A stretch of 64,000 nucleotides of DNA from Bacteriovoracia bacterium (GTDB lineage: Bacteria; Bdellovibrionota; Bacteriovoracia; Bacteriovoracales; Bacteriovoracaceae). The position numbers and the translations under genes were made by a program. The stretch is taken from contig JAUIIL010000002.1 of NCBI GenBank assembly GCA_030431635.1, forward strand, positions 372,001-436,000. The letters run 5' to 3'. The notes under the pieces are model-generated. The model did not search any database. It was given only the letters and a program-made list of their open reading frames with translations, and was not told where the DNA came from. This document shows, one piece after another, positions 13,570 to 23,091 of the stretch (positions within the stretch are counted from its first letter, which is position 1; every line of letters begins with the position of its first letter).

Positions 13570-14889
13570 ATGAAAGCACTTTTCTTGGGAGAAAGAGAGA
13601 AGAGCCATGAAGATGTAGAGCTGATTCTTGAAGGTGTTTTTGGTTTAAGCTTTGATTGGGCCACTAATTTAAGTGAGTTTTTAGATAAAACAGTAAATGA
13701 CTCTTTCATTCTCCCAATTATTGTGGAATCAGAGTTTTCAAATATATCAAAAATAATAGACAGGTTGCTAAAATTAGACTTAAAAGCGACACCCATTCTC
13801 ATAACAAATAATCCTAAATACTCTGGCTTATCCGGAAATACGGATTTAAGATTTGTGATGTTAAAGACTAACTCAGATGTAGACTTAATTGAAGAGTCTA
13901 TTGAGAAGGCTACTGGACTTCTAAGACAAAACGTAAATAAGCAATATCATCCCGTCCATATCTATCGTTTTTTAAAATTTAATAATGTTGGCGCAGATGT
14001 ATATATAAAATTAAGTGATGAAAAATTTGTTAAAGTTATTAACAAAGATGAAATGTATGACTCAGGACTTATTGAAAAATATACTCAAAGAGGAGTTGAG
14101 AAATTTTACATAAGAGAAGATGACTTTAAACTATTTTTCAATCATTTTCAAACTCTTTTAAGAAATGAACTTTATAAAGAAGAGATCTCTGAGGAAAAGC
14201 TGATTGAAACTCAACTTTCATCTGTAAGCTTTGTCCATGAAGCACTCTCTTCCTTCAATTTTTCGCCAGATATAGTTGAATTAGTAGAAAATATTACTCA
14301 TTCCAATATTAGGCTGGTAAAAAAAAGTAATACAAAATTATTTGATATGCTTAAACATATTGTTCGAAGTAAAAGTTATTTGTATGAGCATTCTTTAATG
14401 ACTTCTTATATTTCGATTGAGATTGCAAAGAAAATGAATTGGTCAAATACTAATACACTTGAAAAGCTTTCTTTGGCATCTTTACTACATGATATTTACC
14501 TTGATGATAAATTAGCGAAAGTTCATGATATAGAAAAAGAAAAGCTAAAAGAATTAGACTGGAAAGAAACAAAGAGGGTTCAAGATCATTCGTTTCAAAT
14601 TGCTCAACAAATTAGAAGCAGTGAGGGTTTTCCACCAGATTTAGATAATATTCTTCTTAATCATCATGAATTGCCAGACAGTTCGGGCTATCCAAGAGGA
14701 CTATCTGCTTTAAAAATCTCTCCTATTTCTTGTATATTTATTCTTTCTGAAAAGATTGCTCATACACTATTTTTTGAAGGGGATTCTGGAGATACTGTCA
14801 ATAAACTAAATCTTGAGCTAGAAAAATATAATTTCGGAAACTTCAAAAAAGCTTTTCAGGGAGCCAGGTTGATTTGGGGCAAGAATTAG
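13570..14889 (+). CDS. HD-GYP-related protein, possibly catalytically impaired
   Basis: A 439-residue paralogue of the protein at 5785-7173. It has a receiver-like N-terminus with no clear acid pocket, the same middle module (YIKLSDEKFVKVINKDEMYD), and a C-terminal HD-GYP domain. H307-D308 (LLHDIYLDD), HHELPDSSGYPRGL and an upstream His (EHSLMTSYIS) are present. The later Asp found in the paralogue (VALCDEF) is replaced (FILSEKIAH). It may therefore be a weak enzyme or a c-di-GMP-responsive effector. It follows the hybrid kinase by about 40 bp, with AGGAAAGG before the ATG. Confidence 0.75.
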   Translation: MKALFLGEREKSHEDVELILEGVFGLSFDWATNLSEFLDKTVNDSFILPIIVESEFSNISKIIDRLLKLDLKATPILITNNPKYSGLSGNTDLRFVMLKTNSDVDLIEESIEKATGLLRQNVNKQYHPVHIYRFLKFNNVGADVYIKLSDEKFVKVINKDEMYDSGLIEKYTQRGVEKFYIREDDFKLFFNHFQTLLRNELYKEEISEEKLIETQLSSVSFVHEALSSFNFSPDIVELVENITHSNIRLVKKSNTKLFDMLKHIVRSKSYLYEHSLMTSYISIEIAKKMNWSNTNTLEKLSLASLLHDIYLDDKLAKVHDIEKEKLKELDWKETKRVQDHSFQIAQQIRSSEGFPPDLDNILLNHHELPDSSGYPRGLSALKISPISCIFILSEKIAHTLFFEGDSGDTVNKLNLELEKYNFGNFKKAFQGARLIWGKN

Positions 14890-15793: not shown

Positions 15794-16627
15794 ATGTTAT
15801 CAATTTTTCATTATGAAAGTGCCTCACAATTTTTAAGAGAGAGTTGGGAGCAAAAAAAAGAGACGAATCCCTCTTTCTCTATACGAGCTTGGGCCAAAAG
15901 TCTTGAGATGTCTTCTCATAGCGCTTTGCATAAAATCTTAAATGGAAAAAGAAGTGTTCCAAGAAAATATATTCGTTCATTTTCTAAAAGCCTCTCTCTT
16001 TCTACGAGAGAAGTTATTTATTTTGAAACTTTAGTTAACTTAGAAAAGGCCAAGACCTTAGAAGAAAAAGAATCTTGTCATGAAAGATTAAAGGTTCTTT
16101 ACCCTAAGACCCCTTTAAAGGCAGTTGAGATTGAAGCGTATAAATGTCTTAAAGATCCTCTGCATTTTATTATTTTAGAAATGACTGAAATAAAAAATTT
16201 TGAACTCAATTCTAGATGGATAAAAAAACACCTAAGGTTTAAAGCGACAATAAAGCAAATTGAAAAAGCAATCGAGCGTTTACTTCAACTTGAACTTTTA
16301 AAGGAAGAGAATGGTGTTTATAGAAAGGTTTACTCAAACTTAACGAGCACTCACGATATTGATGATCAGAGTGCTAAATACTACCACAAGCAGATTTCAG
16401 AATTGGCCGCTGAGCAAGTGTTTATACAGGCTCCTTTAGAGCGAGAATTTAATGCCTTCTGTATGAATATGAGAAAAGAGGATTTGAAGAAGGCCAAGCA
16501 GCTGATACGAGAATTTGCTGATAATTTTATTCAAGAAATAGAAGCTCCTTATCAAGAAGGGGATGATACTTACCAACTTAATTTACAATTTTTTAATTTA
16601 ACAAAAATCTCTAAGGAGGAGAAATGA
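15794..16627 (+). CDS. TIGR02147-family protein (putative transcriptional regulator)
   Basis: A 277-residue protein from ATG 15794, which has AAGGAG just upstream; the frame extends further upstream without a better start. The N-terminus (FHYESASQFLRESWEQKKET, then FSIRAWAKSLEMSSHSALHKILNGKR) is a helix-turn-helix-like domain. The C-terminus ends with the family's YQLNLQFFNLT segment. This family is expanded in Bdellovibrionota and Fibrobacteres and is thought to be regulatory; biochemical function is little known. Its stop overlaps the start of the secreted GNGG protein by four bases, so the two are translationally coupled. Confidence 0.85.
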   Translation: MLSIFHYESASQFLRESWEQKKETNPSFSIRAWAKSLEMSSHSALHKILNGKRSVPRKYIRSFSKSLSLSTREVIYFETLVNLEKAKTLEEKESCHERLKVLYPKTPLKAVEIEAYKCLKDPLHFIILEMTEIKNFELNSRWIKKHLRFKATIKQIEKAIERLLQLELLKEENGVYRKVYSNLTSTHDIDDQSAKYYHKQISELAAEQVFIQAPLEREFNAFCMNMRKEDLKKAKQLIREFADNFIQEIEAPYQEGDDTYQLNLQFFNLTKISKEEK

Positions 16628-18621
16628 GAATGATAATTTGGGGAATTTTTATGTTGAGTTTAAATCTTTACGCTTCAGGTGGAAAAGGTAACGGAGGAGA
16701 CGTTGTTGTCTGTAAGAAGGGTGGAAAAACCACTTATGAGACCCTTGATATCTACGAAGAGAGGCAGTTAACGGGCAAAGAAGTTGAACTAACAGTGAAT
16801 AAAGAATTCACGAGAAGAAACTCTGCTTACTGGAAAAGGTATACAATGAACGGTTTTAAAACAAGCTATATAGATTATGCCTTAGCAATGATTGAATCAT
16901 TAAAGTCTTTGAAAGATTGGAGATACGAGACATATAAAAGTCGGATTTATAATTTTCTTAAAAACTCTCAAGTCGAACATGGAACAGATCTACCTGATAT
17001 AAATGATTCTGAGCACCTTTATTTTCCAAAGGATTGCAGGATCAAACAAATAGCCATTCAATGGAAAACTCCTCAAAACGGAAAGCGCTATCGTTTGGAT
17101 GGAGATTTATGGGATAAGCTTGATGATAAGAACAAGGCAGCTCTAGTTATTCACGAAATAGTTTTTGAAGAAGCGATTAATATTGGTCATCGAAACGCAA
17201 TTGTGACAAGAAAAATAACGAGAGACTGGTTAACAGGTAAGCTTCAAAAAGTTTATTCAAGACTTAGTTATGAAGGTATGCTTTTTAGTCAAATTGATTT
17301 GAATTCAAAACCATCATTCGACGAATTGGAAGATGAATTGAAGAACACTAAATATATTTATAGAGCTCATGAATACTCAATCCATTTATACTACAAATAT
17401 AAATGGATTGGGTTTGTTAAAGAACTTGTCAAAAGAGAAATCAGAACCCTACCTTATGTAATTTTGGATGTCATTTTTGAGAATTTAAACTTTGCTGCTA
17501 TCGATGATGCGAAAAATGAGCTCCACTCTTTATTTCAGGGGTTTGATACCGATGGTAAAATAGTATTTATTAAAAATATTACCAAGAGAGCAGTCTCTGG
17601 AGCCTGGTATGAACCACAAGATCTTTATAAAAGAATTCCTTTTATAAATGACTACCAGTCATTCATATTTAAAATGGTTTTACAGAATAAATTGCCATAT
17701 TCTTCTTTTGCTTTAATTAATAATTTGTCAGATGAATCAAAAAGGTTAGTAGAGGAAAAAGCTTTATCTTATGAGGAGTCGATGAACTTTGTTGAAGCAT
17801 TATCAATGACAGGAAAAATTTTTAATAAAGTTAGGTTTTCTCAAAAGCTGACAAGTAAAGTACAAAAAATAGCAATGAAGAGAACTTTAGCGAAATCTAA
17901 TATCAATATTAGTTATGATAGACTTGATACAATAAACCTTCTAAAGCTTCTTTTCTCTGGTGAAAATTTTTCTCATGAAAGCCTTGTTTTCACGAAGAAA
18001 TTTTATTCCTATTTTATAAAAAAACAAGATTGGTTTTATATGTCTCTTATGACTGATGCTATAATGGAGTCAAAGAGTAGAAATGAAATGGATTTTGTTC
18101 ATTTTATAAATTCAATATCAGGTTTATTAGTACGATCTTTGGAATTAACTCCGAAGAGACCAGCAAACCCATTTTATGATCTTAAAACAAACCTTTTGTC
18201 AAAAATAGCAAAGACTTTGAAAGGTGTAGATGAGGTGAGCGAAGAGTTAGATGACTTTCTCATTTACCATATAGATAATGCAAGTGTGATTGGTTTCTTT
18301 TCTCAAAAAAGAACTATTAATAATGAAATTCAAAACTTAGTTTCTAAATATATAAGAAATTTATTTGATGGAAGACTTTATGAAATTGAGAACAGCTATT
18401 ATAAAGTTTTAACTAAATCAGTTTATCTGACTGATTTTACACAAAGTGTAGGAGCTTTTTATTTGAGAAACTCACGTATCGACTTAGATTTAATTGGTTG
18501 GTTAAAAGTATTTATAGACAGAGAGCTTAATGACGAAGCAATCCATGCTGTAAAATACATATACCAAACGACAAATAATAAGAAAATAAAAGAACTTGCT
18601 GAAAGAGTTTTAAATCAATAA
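16624..18621 (+). CDS. Large secreted protein with N-terminal GKGNGG motif, partner of TIGR02147 protein
   Basis: A 665-residue protein with a signal peptide (MLSLNLYASG), immediately followed by GKGNGGDVVVC and TLDIYEE. A further Cys (KDCRIKQIAIQW) and a segment HEIVFEEAINIGHRNA (H177, E178, H189) match positions in the smaller protein at 20347-21594. The remaining 450 residues are helical and unlike anything I recognise. ATGA overlap with the upstream regulator implies co-expression. The HE/GH residues could bind metal (inference only). Exported, probably periplasmic or surface. A strong hairpin follows the gene. Confidence 0.7.
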   Translation: MRMIIWGIFMLSLNLYASGGKGNGGDVVVCKKGGKTTYETLDIYEERQLTGKEVELTVNKEFTRRNSAYWKRYTMNGFKTSYIDYALAMIESLKSLKDWRYETYKSRIYNFLKNSQVEHGTDLPDINDSEHLYFPKDCRIKQIAIQWKTPQNGKRYRLDGDLWDKLDDKNKAALVIHEIVFEEAINIGHRNAIVTRKITRDWLTGKLQKVYSRLSYEGMLFSQIDLNSKPSFDELEDELKNTKYIYRAHEYSIHLYYKYKWIGFVKELVKREIRTLPYVILDVIFENLNFAAIDDAKNELHSLFQGFDTDGKIVFIKNITKRAVSGAWYEPQDLYKRIPFINDYQSFIFKMVLQNKLPYSSFALINNLSDESKRLVEEKALSYEESMNFVEALSMTGKIFNKVRFSQKLTSKVQKIAMKRTLAKSNINISYDRLDTINLLKLLFSGENFSHESLVFTKKFYSYFIKKQDWFYMSLMTDAIMESKSRNEMDFVHFINSISGLLVRSLELTPKRPANPFYDLKTNLLSKIAKTLKGVDEVSEELDDFLIYHIDNASVIGFFSQKRTINNEIQNLVSKYIRNLFDGRLYEIENSYYKVLTKSVYLTDFTQSVGAFYLRNSRIDLDLIGWLKVFIDRELNDEAIHAVKYIYQTTNNKKIKELAERVLNQ

Positions 18622-18633
18622 CTTGAATGATCG

Positions 18634-18664
18634 TGGATACCTTTCTAAAAAAGAAAGGTATCCA
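18634..18664 (+). terminator. Hairpin after the GNGG secreted-protein gene
   Basis: A perfect 13-bp stem, TGGATACCTTTCT (18634-18646) with AGAAAGGTATCCA (18652-18664), around an A-rich 5-nt loop, 13 nt after the stop. There is no long T tract on either side, so it may be a terminator in either direction or an mRNA-stabilising hairpin. It lies between convergent genes. Confidence 0.55.
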
Positions 18665-18698
18665 TTAATGTTGCTTTCAATATCTAAAATCTTTTTTC

Positions 18699-19343
18699 CT
18701 AATTTTTTGGTATGAGAATACCGTTATCATCATCAAGGAAAGAGTAAATAAAGAAGGGGGTATTTTTAATTCGTTTTAGTTTAACGTCATAATAACGACC
18801 CCATTTAATAAAAATATCGCCTTTTATAATCTTTACTTTTCGAATGAAGTTATTATTAGGCTCTCCCCAGTCTTTAAGACTTGCCATAATTCTCCCACCT
18901 TTCTTAAAAAAAGTAATATGACAACTAGAGCAACTTGATTTTTTTAAATCATAGACAGTGTCTAACTTAGCGGGAAAAGACTCAGGGTTAGAAACCTTTG
19001 AAATAAAAACTCCTCGGTATTGATACCCCTCGTATTCATCTTTAAAAAAATAAATGAGTCCAGCAATGTCACTGACAGCTTTTAGCTTGATAGAAAATTG
19101 ATTTTTCCATTTGATGAAAACATAGTTTCCTTCAATTCCTACTTCTTTGATATAATCTACTCCGACGTCTCCCCAGTCCATTAGTTTTGCTTTAATAGAG
19201 CCTGAGTCAGTTTGGAAAAACTCAACCGAGCAGGTTTCGCAAGAAGAATCAACTAATTTATAGTTATAATTAAGCTTGATTGGAAAATTGGCCATTGTGG
19301 CATTAGAAAATAAAAAACAGAAAATAAGATAGAATTTCTTCAT
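18699..19343 (-). CDS. Secreted protein of two tandem SCxxC repeat domains
   Basis: A 214-residue protein with a signal peptide (FYLIFCFLFSNATMA). It then has two homologous units of about 90 residues: residues 20-115 (FPIKLNYNYKLVDSSCETC, KLMDWGD, YVFIKWKNQFSIKLK) and residues 122-210 (FPAKLDTVYDLKKSSCSSC, SLKDWGE, DIFIKWGRYYDVKLK). Each has an SCxxC pair that could form a disulfide or bind metal. No known family is recognised. It lies leftward between two regulator/GNGG modules, with its own upstream region. A role in those modules is suggested by position only. Confidence 0.7.
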   Translation of the reverse strand: MKKFYLIFCFLFSNATMANFPIKLNYNYKLVDSSCETCSVEFFQTDSGSIKAKLMDWGDVGVDYIKEVGIEGNYVFIKWKNQFSIKLKAVSDIAGLIYFFKDEYEGYQYRGVFISKVSNPESFPAKLDTVYDLKKSSCSSCHITFFKKGGRIMASLKDWGEPNNNFIRKVKIIKGDIFIKWGRYYDVKLKRIKNTPFFIYSFLDDDNGILIPKN

Positions 19344-19577
19344 AACGACCTCCCATGTTGTGTAAGAAGAATACTATGTTTATCAATGAGCACTGAAATA
19401 TTGTCAACGAAAGCAAAGTTAAACTGGGGGCAGGAATAAGACATAAAAAAATAACGCAAAGTGTGTGTCTCGTTCATGGCCTCACCAATAAGAGGACCTA
19501 AGCAGAGAAAGGAGGAAATCAGGTTGATAAATAACGAATGATTATGCTAGGTTCGGTGGACAAAAATACGAGAGGAA

Positions 19578-20357
19578 ATGATGAGGCCCAACAATTTTCA
19601 ACAAATTGTTTTACAACAAGAATTATGTTCGAAAAAAACGCGTAACAACAGTTTCTCCTTAAGAGCTTTTGCTTCGTTTCTTGATGTTGATTCTTCAAGT
19701 CTATCTAAAGTATTAAGAGGTGAGAGAGTTTTTAACATGAAGAATACTAGTTCAGTAGCGAAAAAGTTAAAGCTCAAAGGTCTTAGACTTGAGAATTTTA
19801 TCAGGGCCAAAATAAATGATTTAAAAATTGAAAAAATAGGCTTTGAGAATAAACTTGTTCTTGATTGTAAAACATATAAAAAAATAATAGAGGATTGGGA
19901 ATATTACGCGTTACTTGACTTAGTTAACACGAAAAATTTTGTGATGAACTTTATTTGGATTGGCGCGCGTTTAGGAATAAGTGAAAAAAGAGCTGAGGAC
20001 GTTTTTTATAGTCTTCATCAATATGGGTTTATTGAAATCTCTGAGGACGGGAGTATTTCAACGAATAATATTCATTTTTGTACCTCTGAAGATATTAACT
20101 CATCCGTTTTACAAAAAGCCCATATAAAGGCTTCTGAGCTCGCTATCAGTAAAATAGAGTCAATCGATGTGAATCTTAGAGACTATTCTGTTATTACAAT
20201 GCCAGTTTCTAAAGATTTACTTCCTGTTGCAAAAGACCTTATTAGAGATTTTAGAGTTAGACTTTCAGAGTTATTACAAAGTGGTGATAGTGATGAAGTG
20301 TATCAAATGAATATTCAACTTTTTCCTTTAAGCAAAGAAGTTTGTCATGAAATGTAG
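19578..20357 (+). CDS. TIGR02147-family protein (putative transcriptional regulator), second copy
   Basis: A 259-residue paralogue of the 15794-16627 product. The N-terminal HTH-like part is NNSFSLRAFASFLDVDSSSL then LRGERVF; the C-terminal family segment is EVYQMNIQLFPLSKE. ATG 19578 (or 19581) follows GAGAGG. The downstream secreted protein starts inside its last codons (11-nt overlap), repeating the architecture of the first module. Confidence 0.85.
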   Translation: MMRPNNFQQIVLQQELCSKKTRNNSFSLRAFASFLDVDSSSLSKVLRGERVFNMKNTSSVAKKLKLKGLRLENFIRAKINDLKIEKIGFENKLVLDCKTYKKIIEDWEYYALLDLVNTKNFVMNFIWIGARLGISEKRAEDVFYSLHQYGFIEISEDGSISTNNIHFCTSEDINSSVLQKAHIKASELAISKIESIDVNLRDYSVITMPVSKDLLPVAKDLIRDFRVRLSELLQSGDSDEVYQMNIQLFPLSKEVCHEM

Positions 20358-21594
20358 TTTAGTCGTATTTTTAATTTTGTTCTGTATCCTAAATAGTTTC
20401 GCTGGAGAGAAAGGAAACGGTGGCCCAGGGGTATTATGCTATGACTCTTTGTACACTCTTGATTTTTATGAATATTACGGTCAGCAAAAAGCGGAAGACA
20501 AGGTTATTCACTCATCCCACTTTAATAAAGAGTTGGAGAAAAGGTTCGAGCTTCTAGATAAGAAATTAAGACAAAACATAAAAAAGGCGATGTTAGTAGT
20601 AGGTGATGAGAAAAGTTGGTCAAGAGGGCCTATGAATAGAACTTTTGATTCTCATTATCTTGCTTACGAGCTTGAAGAGGGGTGTGAGCTTATTCAGCTT
20701 GTTCAAATGAAGGATGATAAAGTAAGTTGGAATATTCAATATTACGATGAACTCAGGGCCATTCAAAAAAAGATCATGTGGTTACATGAAGTTATTTATT
20801 ACACTGGACGAACCTATTACGGGCATCAGCATTCATTCTTGGCCAGGGCACTGACCATAGAATTAATCAAGAAGATCATTTCTTCAGATGACTTAGGCCA
20901 AGTCCTTAAAATTTTTGTGAATCAAAGGAATTTCTTAAATCGTTTAAATAAAGCAACGATTGATGGGACTATATTTAAACTTCAAAACTCTAATTATGCC
21001 CATGTGAGTTGTCCTGAGAGGATAGGAATGGATCGTTTGTCCTTCTATCATTACATTTTTTATTTCCAAGGACACAGCTCTCTTGATTGGAAAGAATTTT
21101 TAAATGGAAGTAACAACGGTTATTATGTTTTTCATTCTGCATCTTTGGATGGTTACAACAATATTAATGCGAGACAAAGGCAGTACTTTCAAGAAAAGTA
21201 TATTCACAAGCTTTTAGCAAAGAGTGAGAACAAAGGAGAGATTCTTTATTTTAATGGTTATAATAACTATATTTTTCTCTCTTCCTTTGTTGAAAAAAAT
21301 CCATTAGCTCTTTACCTCAAAGAATTAGAAAAGCCTTTTCCCTATTGGGGAAAAGCGGGAGAGTACAGTCTTTATATAGAAAGAATTAGTGAGGAGCTCA
21401 AAAATAAACTTATTGAGAATAAATATGAAACTATCACGACTTATCATTTTGACTCTTCAGGTTCTTTGAGAGCTTCTAAGTTAGAAGAAGAATTAACGGA
21501 CAGCATTGTAAAAAATGGAACTAAGTGTAGTTATAAAAAAGAAGAAAACATCGCTATTCGCGATTTGGTAGAGAAAATAGAGCTTTCAAACTAA
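20347..21594 (+). CDS. Secreted protein with GEKGNGG motif, partner of second TIGR02147 protein
   Basis: A 415-residue protein with a signal peptide (SLVVFLILFCILNSFAG). The mature start has EKGNGGPGVLC and TLDFYEYYG, matching the 16624 protein. An internal LEEGCELIQL and HEVIYYTGRTYYGHQHSF match its Cys and HE/GH region. The C-terminal parts differ and this protein is about 250 residues shorter. No enzyme family is recognised. It overlaps the preceding regulator gene, so expression is coupled. Confidence 0.7.
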   Translation: MKCSLVVFLILFCILNSFAGEKGNGGPGVLCYDSLYTLDFYEYYGQQKAEDKVIHSSHFNKELEKRFELLDKKLRQNIKKAMLVVGDEKSWSRGPMNRTFDSHYLAYELEEGCELIQLVQMKDDKVSWNIQYYDELRAIQKKIMWLHEVIYYTGRTYYGHQHSFLARALTIELIKKIISSDDLGQVLKIFVNQRNFLNRLNKATIDGTIFKLQNSNYAHVSCPERIGMDRLSFYHYIFYFQGHSSLDWKEFLNGSNNGYYVFHSASLDGYNNINARQRQYFQEKYIHKLLAKSENKGEILYFNGYNNYIFLSSFVEKNPLALYLKELEKPFPYWGKAGEYSLYIERISEELKNKLIENKYETITTYHFDSSGSLRASKLEEELTDSIVKNGTKCSYKKEENIAIRDLVEKIELSN

Positions 21595-21699
21595 GATGCG
21601 CGTTGTGTTGTTTATGAATAATTTACAAACTTGAAAAGGCCTATTATCTAATTCTTTTAGTGACGTTATAAAGAAAAAAACACATTAAAGGATAGCTTG

Positions 21700-23091
21700 A
21701 TGAAACTTCTCACATTATTAGTCTTATTTTCTTCTTTTGTTTTCTCACAAACTTCATCTATTGAATCATTAGAAAAAGTTCTTTTTGAAAAAGACAATGA
21801 TGATGTTCGTACTGATGTTGTTATCGTTCAAAAAGAAGGACAAGTTATTTATGAGAGGTACGCAAGAGGATATAACGCTGATACCAAGCACCTTTCTTGG
21901 TCTATGGCCAAAACATTTGCTGGTATTTTAATTGGCCAGGCCCAAAAAGATGGTTATTTAAACCTTCAAGACAAGGTAAGCAATTACTACAAAGAATTTC
22001 AAGGTGAAGCTACAATTCTTGATCTTCTGCAAATGTCATCTGGTATTGATTTTATTGAAGAGTATTCTGGAGTTCCAGTTCATGTTGATGTTACCAAAAT
22101 GCTCTACCTTAATGGGCCAAAAGCCGGATTTGATAATTTTACTGTCACGAGAGAACTTAGAGAAGATTTAAAACCTGGGGAATACTTTTTTTACTCAAGT
22201 GGCGATAGCAATGTATTAATGGGAATTTTAAAGAAAGCGATTAATCAAAAGTCGGTTTATGATAATTATCCTTGGAAGTCATTATTTTCACCGTTAGGAG
22301 TTACGGCCACTTTTGAACAAGATAGTCATGGAACATTTGTTGGTTCTTCTTATATTTACATGTCTGGAAAAGATTATTTAAAAGTTGGAGAGCTTCTGGT
22401 AAATAAGGGGGAATTAAATGGCGAGCAAGTGATTCCTCAAGAATACTTCTCTCTTATGACCCAAGTTTCTCTTGGAGTTAATCAGTACGCAGATGCTCTG
22501 ACATCTCAAACGAGAGCTTACTCAGTTCAGGTTACAACAAATCAACCAATTGAAGGAAGAAACTTACCTCCTGAATATGAGGATCTTCCTAGTGACTCAC
22601 TCATTCTTATTGGACACCAAGGACAATTATTAATAGCAAGTCCCTCTCAGAAACTTGTTATTGTTAGACTTGCAACAGACAGTGGTTCAAGCTTTAAGAG
22701 AAGAGAATTTTTAAAGCACATCAAATCTCTTGCTGACGAAAAAGGTGTTCCTTATGAAAGTGCAAAAGAAGAGAATTCTTTATGGTACTCTCAAGAAGCA
22801 CCTGCTCCTATACTTGCTAAAGAGGAGGCTGCTCCAACTGCCGGGTTTTGGGATTATTTCAAGGTTCCAAGACTTATTGAGAGTTTGACCGCGAAAGAGA
22901 TGTGCTCGTGTGTTTTTGTCGTGGGTAGAAGCAAAAAAACATGTAAAAAGGATCTGCAAACATCGGTTCCATTAAAATTCTTTGTTGATATTAATAGAGA
23001 GAAAAAAACAGTAAGCTCTTTTATTATCCCAGGTGTTGTTGAAAAAGCTCAATACAGAGGGGAAAAGCTTGGTTGTGCTTTAGTTTTTTAA
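21700..23091 (+). CDS. Secreted serine hydrolase of the beta-lactamase/6-aminohexanoate-hydrolase type
   Basis: A 463-residue protein with a signal peptide (LLTLLVLFSSFVFSQ). The beta-lactamase-fold SxxK is S68-M-A-K71 (LSWSMAKTFAG). A Tyr motif, YSSGDSNVLMG, begins at Y165. A GHQGQ segment could serve as the third motif. The overall pattern fits the class C-related serine hydrolases that include 6-aminohexanoate-dimer hydrolases; substrate is unknown. After residue about 375 there is an added C-terminal region with cysteines (MCSCVFVVGRSKKTCKKD). ATG 21700 has AAAGGA 8 nt upstream. Confidence 0.82.
   Translation: MKLLTLLVLFSSFVFSQTSSIESLEKVLFEKDNDDVRTDVVIVQKEGQVIYERYARGYNADTKHLSWSMAKTFAGILIGQAQKDGYLNLQDKVSNYYKEFQGEATILDLLQMSSGIDFIEEYSGVPVHVDVTKMLYLNGPKAGFDNFTVTRELREDLKPGEYFFYSSGDSNVLMGILKKAINQKSVYDNYPWKSLFSPLGVTATFEQDSHGTFVGSSYIYMSGKDYLKVGELLVNKGELNGEQVIPQEYFSLMTQVSLGVNQYADALTSQTRAYSVQVTTNQPIEGRNLPPEYEDLPSDSLILIGHQGQLLIASPSQKLVIVRLATDSGSSFKRREFLKHIKSLADEKGVPYESAKEENSLWYSQEAPAPILAKEEAAPTAGFWDYFKVPRLIESLTAKEMCSCVFVVGRSKKTCKKDLQTSVPLKFFVDINREKKTVSSFIIPGVVEKAQYRGEKLGCALVF

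Follow-up and report, generated by a model that had tools for sequence, protein, structure and literature searches.

RRNPP regulators have C-terminal tetratricopeptide repeats and a cognate short secreted peptide, and in the FlgM/sigma-28 and ExsE systems a cytoplasmic regulator learns of the state of export from a protein that is itself exported by the type III route. Here we describe two overlapping gene pairs in a 64,000-nucleotide (nt) stretch of DNA from a Bacteriovoracia bacterium (assembly GCA_030431635.1, contig JAUIIL010000002.1, positions 372,001 to 436,000; this whole stretch is hereafter called the window), each composed of a gene for a TIGR02147/DUF4423 regulator and a gene for an exported protein that carries a short glycine- and asparagine-rich tag. 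Judging from sequence comparisons, we put the probability at about 60% that both pairs represent a two-gene module of wide occurrence, whose regulator controls one dedicated tagged protein that is exported or lipid-anchored. The sequence-level support consists of constant adjacency in both directions, overlapping translation, occurrence of the tag on unrelated protein bodies, co-inheritance and freedom of orientation.

The pairs resemble RRNPP/Rgg-peptide pairs in that an xre-type helix-turn-helix (HTH) regulator gene lies beside the gene of an exported product, in multiple paralogous copies, but the partners are 90-1587 amino acids (aa) long rather than short peptides, and the C-terminal half of the regulator is a predicted winged helix instead of tetratricopeptide repeats. 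If the tag is read before export, the module is also similar to FlgM/sigma-28 and ExsE-type secretion-coupled regulation, from which it differs by using signal-peptide or lipoprotein export, by having one paralogous regulator for each exported protein, and by placing a common short tag on unrelated bodies. HigA/GraA and the C-protein/SinR xre regulators share the HTH fold of the N-terminal 65-90 residues, whereas TIGR02147 proteins are longer, have a second, winged-helix domain, and are accompanied by an exported partner in place of a toxin or a modification enzyme. The neighbor of this HigA-like gene encodes a large exported protein, not the HigB-type toxin expected of a HigBA pair.

DUF4423 (PF14394) has the status of a domain of unknown function in Pfam, and TIGR02147 that of a paralog-type family in NCBIfam. 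No mention of TIGR02147 was found in open-access papers, a coverage that leaves subscription journals and preprints outside, and these papers yielded neither a description of the linked tagged exported protein nor a printed instance of GTETGNP, one form of the tag. The sole mention of DUF4423 found there (PMC12546842) concerns the protein Bd3700, which B. bacteriovorus up-regulates during its exit phase.

Two overlapping gene pairs and the predicted fold of their regulators

Both pairs are encoded on the plus strand. Regulator 1 (277 aa, 15794..16627) is followed by partner 1 (665 aa, 16624..18621), and regulator 2 (259 aa, 19578..20357) by partner 2 (415 aa, 20347..21594), with overlaps of 4 base pairs (bp) and 11 bp, respectively. 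These coordinates, sizes and overlaps are exactly those given in a preliminary description of the window, which had also taken the first genes to be of TIGR02147 type. Profile scores agreed with that assignment, at 147.9 bits for regulator 1 and 83.3 bits for regulator 2 against TIGR02147 (cut-off 50), and at 114 and 136 bits against DUF4423 (cut-off 30), which makes both regulators members by score, with 28% identity between them. The start codon of partner 1 is inside the ATGA overlap, and its ribosome-binding site, AAGGAGGAG, lies within the 3′ end of regulator 1, which carries the ribosome-binding sequence AAGGAGGAGAAATGAGAATG. Because of this position, translation of regulator 1 and partner 1 is probably coupled. 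Promoter matches upstream of the window regulators were below those of shuffled sequences.

The partners were characterized by signal peptide, tag and alignment. In partner 1, a signal peptide is followed by a G-K-G-N-G-G-D tag (aa 20-26), C30, LDIYE, C138 and HE (177-178), and in partner 2 a G-E-K-G-N-G-G-P tag stands behind the signal peptide. The two secreted proteins do align, as had been supposed from their shared N-terminal core, with 40% identity over 43 aa (E=5e-4), and they fall into a single sequence cluster of about 29 homologues, which we call class A. This class gave no match above cut-off in Pfam or NCBIfam, toxin families included.

The AlphaFold2 model of regulator 1 (predicted local distance difference test, pLDDT, 93.0) contained an xre-type HTH at about residues 8-85 and a winged helix at about residues 110-180, followed by a C-terminal segment with conserved R217, F241 and Y-x-L-N-x-Q-F-F. 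The N-terminal HTH resembled HigA, GraA, C.AhdI, SinR and P22 c2 (Z up to 9.4; Foldseek probability 0.99 for SinR and C.AhdI), the C-terminal half matched winged-helix proteins of the ArsR/HxlR type, and Rgg2/ComR appeared only in weak Foldseek rows. An N-terminal domain like that of the HigA/GraA antitoxins, together with some partner domains that could be effectors, would suit toxin-immunity or toxin-antitoxin-like pairs, in which exported effectors are guarded or neutralized by a cytoplasmic HigA-like protein. Many partner bodies, however, are lectin, Ig-like or lipoprotein modules with no toxin character, partners reach 1587 aa, the regulator has a predicted winged-helix C-terminus, and there are many orphan regulators, which makes such pairs highly improbable.

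Pairing of TIGR02147 genes with exported proteins

A profile search of the bacterium's own genome (3.3 Mb, 19 contigs) detected 13 TIGR02147 loci over the cut-off. All 13 full-length genes above the cut-off were followed on the same strand by a gene for an exported protein with a Gly/Asn-rich stretch behind the signal peptide (GNGGD, GNGADAIVC, GGGGD and similar), mostly with an overlap of 4 bp, and one weak match (L019, 25.9 bits) was without such a partner. Conversely, a profile search of the genome for class A gave 10 proteins, all of them encoded directly behind a TIGR02147 gene. The tag itself was searched in this genome as a DNA pattern, which covers only GNG, then G or A, then a further G. 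Of 20 GNG[GA] matches, 8 were located shortly behind a signal peptide, and all 8 were beside TIGR02147; the remaining 12 were not post-signal, had unrelated contexts and were not beside TIGR02147. At one locus (L010, G000:C1:334556-335365), a regulator gene with an internal TAA precedes an intact tagged class A partner, so this regulator is possibly decaying.

Of 39 relatives, 34 likewise had TIGR02147 matches (above the cut-off in 33), with up to 38 matches per genome, and further matches were found in 59 named loci of a separate collection. Fibrobacterota had 24-56 matches per genome, and the range of 10-56 was reached in predatory Bacteriovoracia relatives, Fibrobacterota and some Myxococcota. 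Four locus sets were compared, namely the own genome, relatives, the named loci, and a set mostly of Fibrobacterota and Myxococcota, all samples that contain related paralogues. Over Bdellovibrionota, Fibrobacterota and Myxococcota, 146 of 188 TIGR02147 genes had an exported next gene (13/15, 60/82, 43/55 and 30/36 in the four sets, in that order). Outside the own genome, the tag census covered the neighborhoods of TIGR02147 genes. GN[GPASH] was present near the start of 114 of the 146 exported next genes, while 9 more had a GG..[ST]E variant, and the commonest gene offset was -4 (ATGA; 85/161).

The pairing was equally visible from the other side. When class A partners of 30 genomes served as the point of departure, a TIGR02147 gene was adjacent or within about 0.7 kb at 28 of 30 loci. 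It was upstream in the same direction at 19 loci, two of which had an intervening gene that is probably a first partner in tandem, divergent at 8 loci (L208, L209, L210, L212, L213, L216, L218 and L220), and downstream at one locus (L215). In the two exceptions, the locus borders a contig edge (L211) or no TIGR02147 gene is within reach (L214). Such freedom of orientation is more in keeping with a functional pair than with a frozen operon. Partner class also followed the regulator tree, with 24 changes compared to a shuffled mean of 80, and 11 compared to 20 in the own family. Thus, regulator and partner have been passed on jointly, and bodies have been replaced in the course of descent. The preliminary description had proposed a modular regulator/exported-protein system from the two copies in the window, and the counts in the own genome and across phyla, in both directions, bear this proposal out; the association of TIGR02147 genes with GNGG proteins recurs widely elsewhere.

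Several loci departed from the simple two-gene arrangement. At L058, L098, L107 and L168, a second tagged exported protein follows the first partner in tandem behind one regulator, and L064/L065 (G014:C2) are tandem TIGR02147 genes with no partner between them. The high-scoring TIGR02147 genes L140, L143, L146, L162 and L165, from Bdellovibrio-type genomes, have no exported neighbor and form a candidate orphan subfamily. An apparent fusion of regulator and partner in L252 (G035:C31:17500-23500; 946-aa open frame) was set aside, since the join is an A-run and the ribosome-binding site is intact, so that a one-base assembly indel is likelier, and an apparent 677-aa frame in L251 was a run of masked N.

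The tag, the partner bodies and the class A domain

Aligned on GN, the tag has the consensus G-x-[ED]-[VIT]-G-N-[GPA]. Examples are GKEIGNGGD and GGVDVGNG in Bacteriovoracia and GFEIGNGK in other Bdellovibrionota, while in Myxococcota and Fibrobacterota GTETGNP or GTEVGNP stands just behind the lipobox cysteine (C..GTETGNP), often fading to GG..[ST]E in Fibrobacterota. An alignment of 90 diverse partners showed essentially only the signal peptide and G...GNG in common. The partners comprised 42 bodies unrelated by sequence, and for 31 of them the tag was present in at least half of the members. The tag was much rarer (33 of 288, p=6e-17) among unrelated exported bodies from these loci, and several of the latter were second partners in tandem. 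This body-level count is the fairest one, since the locus samples include related paralogues. At the protein level, 108 of 143 partners and 40 of 362 other exported proteins of the same loci had the tag.

Both Asn codons and all four Gly codons were in use in the tag, and this free synonymous variation indicates that the protein, not the DNA, is conserved. The distance of the tag from the signal had a median of about 14 residues and reached more than 40 beyond the hydrophobic core. An operator encoded in the tag at the DNA or RNA level was ruled out by the free synonymous variation and the varying distance from the start. The same data bear on the possibility that the pair is an ordinary autoregulated operon, in which the 5′ end of the second gene merely retains the tag from a common ancestor and the bodies were swapped downstream of it by recombination. 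Overlapping genes with a strong ribosome-binding site do form a unit that can be copied with its 5′ end, and partner class tracks the regulator tree. Nevertheless, the tag persists at deep divergence in three phyla, with free codons and a variable distance from the signal, where a functionless remnant should erode, and 5′-end hitchhiking does not account for the divergent and reversed gene orders. We regard such an operon with a remnant tag as quite improbable.

Partner bodies with a Pfam match included carboxypeptidase-regulatory-like, laminin-G-like lectin, serpin, VWA, ankyrin, beta-propeller, fn3 and FGE-sulfatase domains. Since several of these (carboxypeptidase-regulatory-like, laminin-G-like lectin, serpin, VWA and fn3) are typical surface modules, and the tag of Fibrobacterota and Myxococcota is close behind the lipobox cysteine, the expected place for a sorting signal, the tag could serve sorting or processing, that is, surface delivery or cleavage by a common machine, by the logic of PEP-CTERM or the Bacteroidota lipoprotein export signal, with the regulator merely setting expression of the cargo. 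A general signal of this kind would be expected away from TIGR02147 as well, but in the own genome none of the 12 other GNG[GA] matches was post-signal, and sorting leaves one paralogous regulator per cargo unexplained. On balance, we consider a sorting signal rather unlikely.

The class A domain of partner 1 (aa 19-223; 16678..17292, plus strand) has HExxF at the helix position of the zincin motif, and the corresponding sequence of partner 2 is HEVIY. In a 50-row alignment of the family, numbered as in the 665-aa protein, Cys138 and Glu178 were invariant and Gly24, Cys30, Asp42, Asp128, His177 and Arg196 nearly so. The two near-invariant cysteines may form a disulfide. Of the shared HE...GH segment noted earlier, HE held throughout the family, and the histidine of GH was present in just 9 of 50. 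The structure model, whose core has a pLDDT of about 90 and which is reliable over about residues 1-205, had closest folds that were nearly all zincins (selecase, Z 4.1; abylysin, 3.6; SPRTN-like, 3.3; BlaR1, 3.0). The resemblance is weak (Z up to 4.1, Foldseek E at least 0.64), and the metal site that had been suspected in HE...GH is borne out only in part. Class A keeps the His-Glu of minigluzincins (selecase, abylysin) and other zincins at the helix position, but the second zinc histidine of HExxH is absent in all 50 rows, being replaced by Y (33), L (7), W (4), R (4) or F (2). Together with the scarcity of the GH histidine, this led us to reject an active metallopeptidase, and class A is probably an inactive zincin-like exported domain.

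Other genes surround the two pairs in the window. Upstream of the first pair, a gene (13570-14889, plus strand) encodes a protein of 439 aa whose C-terminal half contains an HD domain, and between the pairs, divergent from regulator 2, lies a gene for a 214-aa signal-peptide protein (18699-19343, minus strand) with two similar halves, each with Cys-x-x-Cys (SSCETC and SSCSSC), and weak Pfam matches only. A signal-peptide serine hydrolase of a beta-lactamase-like family (Pfam PF00144, 81 bits) is encoded right behind the second pair (21697-23091, plus strand).

Proposed function of the module

Control of the partner appears to be the likeliest function of the regulator, with sensing through the tag as a possibility. 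The regulator would bind DNA near the module and switch its own partner on or off, and a cell with 10-50 copies of the module could deploy different surface or secreted proteins separately. More speculatively, the unexported precursor, or a piece of it, probably reports to the regulator by means of the tag, which would couple expression to export, since the tag outlasts exchanges of the body and, in the own genome, was found only beside these regulators. A specific form of this proposal is that the tag is the ligand of the paired regulator, the tag of a precursor that still awaits export binding the DUF4423 region and switching transcription of the pair, so that a genome would contain dozens of insulated export-monitoring loops whose bodies can be exchanged while the tag is kept; this we offer tentatively and with some doubt.

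A number of observations weigh against control of a dedicated partner and against reporting through its tag. Signal peptides were assigned with a simple rule based on hydrophobicity instead of a trained predictor, and 42 of the 188 TIGR02147 genes, about a fifth, had no exported next gene by these criteria (one has a divergent partner), so the regulator can act without an adjacent partner. About a quarter of the partners had no recognizable GN tag, and one partner class has its tag 30-60 aa or more beyond the signal. An operator search upstream of both window regulators gave no clear palindrome, only short imperfect 9-nt inverted-repeat arms. The strongest point against tag reporting is that 23 orphan regulators, compared with 151 paired ones, retain most of the conserved residues, which are therefore not readable as a tag-binding site, and contact between tag and regulator is putative. 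The same comparison was considered as a source of a candidate binding site; only T185 and G167 differed notably, and as the orphans are few and related, no claim is made from it.

The system is apparently large and undescribed, spanning three bacterial phyla at dozens of copies per genome. No precedent is known to us for its architecture, a short tag on unrelated exported bodies with one paralogous regulator each, which would be less unusual if the pairs are plain autoregulated operons. Through the module, the TIGR02147 family, for which no described function was found, gains a concrete candidate job, and a class of exported proteins in predators and fiber degraders becomes definable by one tag and one neighboring gene. 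A sorting role of the tag would imply a delivery route not yet known, and if it is true that the regulator reads the tag, the module would link how a surface protein is expressed with how it is exported, one to one and in a portable form.

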